From the NCBI GenBank assembly GCA_012727955.1, contig JAAYGB010000006.1:62001-126000 (forward strand): a stretch of DNA of 64,000 nucleotides, read 5' to 3'. The stretch comes from Bacillota bacterium. Lineage in GTDB: Bacteria; Bacillota; Limnochordia; DTU087; JAAYGB01. This document shows, one piece after another, positions 62,465 through 63,979 of the stretch. The position numbers were made by a program, and so were the translations under genes. Below the pieces are notes generated by a model. The model did no database searches, had not been told where the DNA came from, and worked only from the letters and a program-made list of their open reading frames with translations. Within the stretch, counting starts at the first letter, position 1. Every line of letters starts with the position of its first letter.

Positions 62465-63814
62465 CTACCTACCAGCGGGGCTGGAGTAAAGTGGTTCACT
62501 GCTAGAGGATCGATCAGTAAGCCTTCTGCTCTTGGCTGCGCCCACTGCGAAAACCAGGGCTTCGGTGATCGGGAAGGTCAGCCACACACCATTGATTCCC
62601 CAAAGAAGCGACAGGAGAAGGGCCAGCGGTACAACCACGATTAGCCCCCTCAGGATAGAGATCAGAAATCCTGTCTTCGGTTCTTCGATGGCGCTGAAGA
62701 AGGAGGACAACAGGATATTGATTCCGGCGAAGACAAAGCCGGTGAAGTAGATCAAGAGCCCGTTGGTAGCAATAGACCGCAGGAGCTCATCGTTATCACG
62801 ATTGAAGAGATCGGCGATGTCTTCACCGAAGAGAAGGATGACAAGGTAGAGGGCCACAGCCAGTCCAAAGGAAAGGACAACGGCCCAGCGAAGCAAACGC
62901 TTAGAGGTGTCCACCTCACCTCGACCGTAGTAATGGCTTACCAGGGGCTGGATCCCTTGGCCGATGCCGGTGAAGATCGCGGCGGCAATCAGGGACAAAT
63001 TCGCGATGATCCCATAGGCGGCAACGGCAACATTGCCCGACAGGCCCAGCAGTAGCAAATTGAATACAATCAATACCACCGCCGAGGCCACTTCAGAAAC
63101 AAAGGATGAAATACCCAGGGCGCAAATGTTAGACCAGAGGTGGAGACCGCCGGTACCCTTCTGCCAATGGAATCCGTTTTTCTCCTTGATGAAGTAGGGA
63201 GACATCACTGCCATACTGATGATGGGCGCCAATCCTGTGGCAAAGGCAGCGCCGAACATTCCCATACCCCAGGGGAAGATGAAAATGTAGTCCAGGATAA
63301 CATTGGCGATGCTTCCCGTCAGCATTCCCGCCATGGCGGTATTGGGACTGCCATCATTGCGAATGAAGGCGATTAAGATGTTATTCAAGATGAAACCGGG
63401 TGCAAAGCACAGAATGGTTTTCAGATAGGTTGTCGTTAGTGGTAGGATGCTCCCATCGGCTCCCAGCAGCTGAGCCAGGGGCTCTGCCAGCAAAGCACCC
63501 ACTAGGAAATAAAGTAATCCCACTAACAACCCCAGTTGAACCGTTACCGTAAAGGTCCGGTTGCCTTCCTCCTCAGAGTGGTTACCCGACCTTTGCAGGT
63601 TATACCGGGTGGCACCGCCGATCCCCAACATCAGGCCGGTACCGTTAATGATACTGGAGATGGAGATTGCCAGGTTGAGGGCAGCCAAACCCTCCGCGCC
63701 GATCCCATTGGCCACAAAGAAGGTATCGGCAAGAATATAGCCGCACAGCCCCAGCATCCCCAACACGTTCAGCGACACATACTTGGAAAAGCTGGTAAGT
63801 AGTTGGGTGGTCAT
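62465..63814 (-). CDS. MATE family multidrug efflux transporter
   Basis: 449 residues from ATG 63814 with AAGGAAGGA upstream; the in-frame ATG 63832 would include this site. Twelve hydrophobic segments in two homologous halves, with MATE features such as VSLNVLGMLGLCGYILADTFFVA, GIGGATRYNLQRSGN, AFIRNDGSPNTAMAGMLTGSIANVILDYIFIF and IGQGIQPLVSHYYGRGE. MATE proteins export cationic drugs or metabolites by Na+ or H+ antiport. It is transcribed alone from a promoter about 140 bases upstream, and a terminator sits immediately before the ribosome binding site. It is unrelated in detail to the decayed MATE gene at 6629. Confidence 0.93.
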   Translation of the reverse strand: MTTQLLTSFSKYVSLNVLGMLGLCGYILADTFFVANGIGAEGLAALNLAISISSIINGTGLMLGIGGATRYNLQRSGNHSEEEGNRTFTVTVQLGLLVGLLYFLVGALLAEPLAQLLGADGSILPLTTTYLKTILCFAPGFILNNILIAFIRNDGSPNTAMAGMLTGSIANVILDYIFIFPWGMGMFGAAFATGLAPIISMAVMSPYFIKEKNGFHWQKGTGGLHLWSNICALGISSFVSEVASAVVLIVFNLLLLGLSGNVAVAAYGIIANLSLIAAAIFTGIGQGIQPLVSHYYGRGEVDTSKRLLRWAVVLSFGLAVALYLVILLFGEDIADLFNRDNDELLRSIATNGLLIYFTGFVFAGINILLSSFFSAIEEPKTGFLISILRGLIVVVPLALLLSLLWGINGVWLTFPITEALVFAVGAAKSRRLTDRSSSSEPLYSSPAGR

Positions 63815-63833
63815 GATCCTTCCTTCCTTCATA

Positions 63834-63890
63834 AAAAAAGTGCCTGGTCACATTCCTTCTAAGACCTAACGGAATGTGGACAGACACTGA
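63834..63890 (-). terminator. Leader terminator (attenuator) of MATE gene
   Basis: On the minus strand AGTG-CTG-CACATTCC pairs with GGAATGTG-CAG-CACT (two short internal mismatched steps), directly followed by seven T. It ends about ten bases before the MATE ribosome binding site. A second hairpin, TCCCTT pairing with AAGGGA, precedes it. This layout is that of a transcription-attenuated leader. Confidence 0.8.
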
Positions 63891-63950
63891 TTCCCTTACC
63901 CGGTGGCAAGGGATAGCGTTTAGATAATATTCGGCACTATTTCCGCTAAC

Positions 63951-63979
63951 AGCATACCAAGGGATCGGGCCGTTGTCAA
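63951..63979 (-). promoter_or_regulatory. Sigma-A promoter of MATE gene
   Basis: On the minus strand TTGACA (63979-63974), a 17-base spacer and TATGCT (63956-63951). Transcription would start near 63944, giving a leader of about 100 bases before the attenuator T tract. Confidence 0.75.

Follow-up and report, generated by a model that had tools for sequence, protein, structure and literature searches.

We analysed a 64,000-nucleotide (nt) stretch of DNA from an uncultured Bacillota bacterium (contig JAAYGB010000006.1, positions 62,001 to 126,000), hereafter called the window, whose right-hand end carries a MATE efflux transporter gene preceded by a leader RNA. Judging by its sequence, this leader is very probably a guanidine-IV riboswitch that controls the MATE exporter as a guanidine ON switch. 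Riboswitches of this class respond to guanidine, a small toxic compound, by activating genes for its removal. We assign it so because its architecture, its gene partners and its embedded terminator match the published class and the extra hairpin of the variant motif Gd4v is absent. The leader is a previously uncharacterised copy of this class in an uncultured bacterium, ordinary in kind. The original prediction, made from the letters of the DNA, had proposed a ligand-responsive attenuated leader that matched no known class. Conservation, covariation, kissing of the loops and shared gene partners back the ligand-responsive reading and point to guanidine-IV; as for the class, no Rfam 15 family fits the leader, but the published guanidine-IV description does.

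On the minus strand, from 63979 to 63814, a promoter is followed by a hairpin (P1), 3 nt, a terminator hairpin, seven U, a ribosome binding site and the MATE ATG (Table 1). The small hairpin and the strong terminator with seven T ahead of the ribosome binding site had both been predicted and were both found. The predicted leader exists as well, but it is a little longer than the 100 bases announced, with about 130 nt to the ATG and about 112 nt to the end of the U-run. P1 contains CCCUUGCC-ACCG-GGUAAGGG within a stem of 9 base pairs (bp). The terminator hairpin (63888..63839) consists of 8 bp, an internal loop and a further 7-8 bp, with the seven T at 63839..63833; the hairpin enclosed in it, P2, has a loop of 14 nt. 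The terminator hairpin was not listed by our simple terminator scan because that scan permits only loops of 3-8. For the whole leader, the calculated folding energy is -44.6 kcal/mol (z = -3.25), a value matched by 1 of 200 shuffles; the energies of the full terminator, P2 alone and P1 are -23.0, -11.0 and -14.9 kcal/mol, respectively. In the terminated state, P1 and the terminator are joined by a linker of 3 nt (AUC).

Relatives of the MATE gene were taken from 60 related genomes, 22 of which matched, and from named genome contigs (40 loci). Loci are numbered with the prefix L; L004 and L027 were taken as the same contig. At 41% identity or more there are 32 named-contig loci, namely L027-L057 and the partial L066. 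The RNA lies upstream in 29 of them, of which 23 have the architecture of the window leader and six (L033, L035, L037, L042, L043, L054) have another terminator; it is absent upstream of L034, L049 and L066. It is also absent at all 8 named-contig loci of 26-30% identity. Among the related-genome relatives, the RNA is present at L004, L005 and L006 and absent at L007 and L008 (48-61% identity), while none of the 18 relatives at 27-37% identity has it, L014 being without upstream sequence. In two Ruminococcus-like genomes (L028:900-1500 and L029:1010-1500), the RNA is located about 500-600 nt upstream of the MATE gene, and the gap appears to hold repeated intergenic sequences. L008, a homologue of 48% identity without the motif, carries an attenuator-like hairpin of another kind, with a U-run, upstream of its ribosome binding site (L008:1398-1471).

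For an alignment of 22 MATE leaders (A1), a script selected the sequences and required three loop-loop pairs in each. We then included L039 manually, removed L007 (a chance match), L027 (a duplicate of L004) and L052 (a near duplicate), and kept the six leaders with the other terminator separate. Both hairpins are common to A1: 90.4% of the cells are paired and double changes occur in 24 of the 27 pairs, whereas in slid controls pairing falls to 34-44% (maximum 43.9%) and the covariation score drops from 0.65 to at most 0.20. The leader is thus kept in orthologues with covarying pairs, the opposite of what the original prediction had named as refuting it. Of the A1 rows, 13 have the kissing pairs ACC/GGU and 8 have GCC/GGC, with AUC/GAU in L047; the presence of kissing pairs in 100% of A1 is partly by construction, because the seed was chosen for loop-loop pairing.

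Using MATE leaders as the only input, we built a covariance model that contains no pseudoknot pair (R1) and searched it against 72 genomes of the class (11 matched) and 398 of the phylum (26 matched). These searches gave 31 loci outside the seed, to which L028 and L029 were added. All three kissing pairs are kept in 29 of these 33 loci, here not by construction, and the first pair is A-U in 17, G-C in 11 and G-U in 4 of the non-seed matches. The set leaves out the weak matches L077, L099, L100, L101 and L102, which have no supporting gene context, as well as L083 (a near duplicate of L082) and the seed members L067, L068 and L072. The weak match L106 was retained because a SugE frame follows the RNA. 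L069-L071, L073, L074 and L076 all stem from a single genus close to seed member L006 and do not count as independent events.

This conservation bears on two other explanations. Ribosome-mediated attenuation by a leader peptide, known from many antibiotic-resistance genes and offered as an alternative in the original prediction, would account for a terminator near the ribosome binding site ahead of an efflux gene. Two short frames are available for it, a GTG with 5 codons at 63937 and a TTG frame running through P1 and P2. No ribosome binding site is seen for either of them, and conservation falls on RNA pairing and loop letters, not on a reading frame; we find this alternative hardly credible. 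A plain intrinsic terminator of some other transcript, without regulatory role, would need nothing beyond the hairpin and U-run. We give it virtually no credence, since the leader has its own promoter upstream, conservation of P1 and the kissing loops extends over the phylum, and the neighbouring gene is divergent: the contig runs on for about 2 kb to the right of the window, and the next gene there lies on the plus strand (L002:2174-3106). The terminator therefore belongs to the MATE leader and not to an upstream gene, the other case that the original prediction had named as refuting it.

Among the 40 R1 loci (L067-L106), the RNA precedes a MATE gene at 17, an SMR/SugE gene at 5, a PnuC gene at 2 (L085, L091) and a DUF1989 gene at one (L095). 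MATE partners were recognized by family scan at L078, L079, L080, L081, L098, L104 and L105 and for the window gene, the others by their N-terminal sequence. The SMR/SugE partners of L089, L092, L093 and L094 match PF00893, and that of L106 was read by eye. A pyridoxamine-phosphate-oxidase/Nim-like gene directly follows the RNA at 4 loci (L082 and L103 scanned, L083 and L084 by likeness), and a small radical SAM gene does so at 2 (L088 scanned, L090 by likeness). The other 9 loci comprise L074, with an apparent broken MATE gene, L076, at a contig end, L096 and L097, whose partner is not assignable, and the five weak matches L077 and L099 to L102, probably due to chance.

We compared these features with guanidine-IV riboswitches (GGAM-1, the former mepA motif; PMC12186494), as described in excerpts of the papers cited here. 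In this class a pseudoknot joins two hairpins, the second of which is a terminator; conserved letters of the second loop are required for binding, and termination is under ON control (PMC7736828). Guanidine is bound at about 0.2 mM in this class, with relief of termination. The kissing-loop mechanism is backed by PMC11611296. The RNAs most often precede sugE, and also PnuC and MATE genes (Lenkeit 2020, PMC7736828). The window leader shares the loop-loop pseudoknot, the conserved second loop and a second hairpin that is an intrinsic terminator (63888..63833), as in guanidine-IV, together with the SugE, MATE and PnuC partners and the Bacillota hosts. No departure from the class was found in the window copy; its host is an uncultured Bacillota lineage. 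Letters of its P2 loop could match the conserved G62, G66, U67 and G72 of the L. lactis RNA, and the G at D1.

The covariance search with known riboswitch families that had been proposed gave nothing relevant in Rfam 15, whether for the window leader (E up to 10, or gathering score), at 15 orthologous loci or at 9 loci including SugE-linked ones (both E up to 10). Rfam does detect a guanidine-I riboswitch before one plasmid sugE. As a check of specificity, R1 was silent on two plasmid sugE loci, including this one. A BLASTN search of plasmids with the 84-nt core returned nothing. Guanidine-II (mini-ykkC) riboswitches resemble the window leader by their kissing hairpins and are described, in excerpts, as having a guanidine ligand, but their conserved ACG loop trimers are absent from the window, where no Rfam match to them was found. 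The HMP-PP (thiS) riboswitch, which we take to have another ligand and other genes than the window RNA, has no Rfam match in the window either. It is likewise an ON switch that uses conserved letters at the terminator tip as aptamer (PMC8632094, excerpt).

The closest competitor is Gd4v, and the leader could be this motif or another specificity variant with the same fold and ON mechanism and a different ligand. According to Lenkeit 2022 (PMC9788692), Gd4v is nearly identical in overall structure, pseudoknot included, and occurs in part ahead of MATE genes, while its binding of guanidine is weak or absent. However, the extra hairpin D2 that Gd4v carries on the terminator (PMC9788692) is missing in the window, and its main partner is the transaminase PRK07324, in contrast to the MATE gene of the window; a Pfam scan of 20 partner proteins found no transaminase. 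In addition, the DUF1989-linked L095 has exactly the stretch AGGUCUUAGAAG found in the P2 loop of the window leader, and the SugE-linked L093 departs from it by one letter. We consider this explanation very unlikely. It is also unlikely that the MATE-linked guanidine-IV-like branch, which includes the window leader, is a further specificity variant beside Gd4v and is tuned to another ligand such as a substituted guanidine or another cation exported by MATE. The SugE-linked locus L092 (1501-1594) has an extra small hairpin (CAGAGAAAUCUG) in its P2 loop that resembles D2, a feature stated in the excerpt of PMC9788692 to be never present in the sugE-linked subset.

Several points weigh against the guanidine-IV assignment. 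The comparison relied on how the class is described in print and on homologues linked to SugE, rather than on an alignment to the L. lactis RNA that was tested. The substrates of MATE proteins are unreadable from sequence. MATE genes are also found behind Gd4v, whose ligand is probably not guanidine (PMC9788692, excerpt). Finally, 4 of the 33 homologues (L075, L076, L087, L097) do not keep the kissing pairs intact. In the MATE leader of genome G041 (L005 / L075), P2 and the terminator are intact and the P1 loop reads UCUA in place of RCCG, which breaks the kissing and suggests a leader that is decayed or of changed specificity.

For the guanidine-IV riboswitch, we propose the following course. 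After transcription from the leader's own promoter, P1 would fold first, then P2. Without guanidine, P2 would extend through the lower stem into the full terminator, and transcription would stop at the seven U. With guanidine, ACC of the P1 loop would kiss GGU of the P2 loop and a binding pocket would form; the kissed loops and the short linker would hold the lower stem open, leading to read-through and synthesis of the MATE exporter. As the linker has just 3 nt, the kissed P1-P2 can probably be accommodated only with the lower stem open. A steric model of this kind was put forward for guanidine-IV (PMC7736828, excerpt) and would apply to the window leader. Its elements, their conservation and covariation, the loop complementarity and the partners come from the present analysis, while the guanidine ligand, the ON direction and antitermination come from the literature on the class. 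We infer that the window RNA binds guanidine and that its MATE exports it. This MATE may be the guanidine exporter of the genome, because no SMR/SugE (PF00893) match is found in the genome, which at about 97% completeness makes this absence no proof; the leader, single-copy and the sole R1 match there, fits as well. A separate candidate, an antiterminator formed with the 5' leader, was rejected: AGUGCC (63938..63933) complements GGCACU of the terminator, and a match of at least 6 arises in 414 of 2000 shuffles.

The near-consensus promoter that had been predicted is present (TTGACA-17-TATGCT with TG, 63979..63951, minus strand) and agrees with the consensus at 10 of 12 positions. By itself it is not significant, one being found for 1.1 expected from shuffles. 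Among 52 homologous RNAs, 40 have a promoter with at least 9 of 12 matches in the 100 bases upstream, where mononucleotide shuffles lead one to expect 6.2; these promoters mostly lie 19-25 nt upstream of the RNA. Transcription would start near 63944-63947 on the minus strand. For the MATE protein, the ATG at 63814 is preferred over the in-frame ATG at 63832.

Table 1. Features of the MATE leader in the window, and related leaders with a mutually exclusive terminator (positions within each locus).
Feature	Position	Strand	Evidence
-35 hexamer TTGACA	63974..63979	-	promoter scan; position kept upstream of homologous RNAs
-10 hexamer TATGCT, 17-bp spacer, TG before hexamer	63951..63956	-	sequence, promoter scan
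Aptamer hairpin P1, 9 bp, tetraloop ACCG	63892..63913	-	folding, alignment
P1 loop ACC, kissing (pseudoknot) letters	63902..63904	-	covariation
P2 upper stem ACAUUCC/GGAAUGU, conserved loop GUUAGGUCUUAGAA	63850..63877	-	folding, alignment
P2 loop GGU, partner of P1 loop	63864..63866	-	covariation
Intrinsic terminator: P2 closed by lower stem AGUGUCUG/CAGGCACU, followed by seven U	63833..63888	-	sequence, folding, alignment
Ribosome binding site AAGGAAGGAAGG	63818..63829	-	sequence
MATE efflux transporter gene	62465..63814	-	Pfam PF01554 6.4e-38; NCBIfam TIGR00797 above cut-off
Mutually exclusive-terminator leaders	L033:1355-1460, L035:1340-1445, L037:1325-1425		
Mutually exclusive-terminator leaders	L042:1240-1345, L043:1305-1405, L054:1280-1395		

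The six leaders set apart from the seed come from Christensenella species, Soleaferrea, Clostridium methylpentosum and Pararuminococcus, and retain, apart from minor differences, the loops RCCG and GUUAGGYC. Their P2 is a 6-bp stem, and their terminator stem AGGYCU.../...AGRYCU consumes the P2 kissing letters. Since this stem uses the kissing letters themselves, the terminator excludes the kissing pairing. The two alternative stems show covariation in the six sequences, with 98.8% pairing over 14 pairs and a maximum of 49.4% in slid controls. By their sequences, these leaders have a classical antiterminator/terminator design for a guanidine-IV-like aptamer, unlike the embedded one. The excerpts of guanidine-IV literature that we searched hold no mention of such a mutually exclusive platform, and no title on it came up in our literature searches, which is no proof that it is unpublished. 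A model of the six leaders (R2), searched in 398 genomes, matched weakly at 2 places; no aptamer is seen in the sequence of either, and both were taken as false.

Outside the window, contig C15 of the same genome carries a purine riboswitch (RF00167, 86.9 bits) followed in tandem by a ykkC-type RNA (RF00442, 60.5 bits, just under the cut-off) at L113:1417-1654, and the downstream open reading frame resembles a xanthine/uracil-type permease. We presume that this is the known guanine-PRPP tandem and not a guanidine sensor.

The analysis shows that a known riboswitch class can escape an Rfam 15 scan. The six leaders with a mutually exclusive terminator offer a natural comparison for the unusual antitermination of guanidine-IV. 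In this uncultured Bacillota lineage, an otherwise "multidrug" MATE gene gains a concrete function, probably guanidine export.
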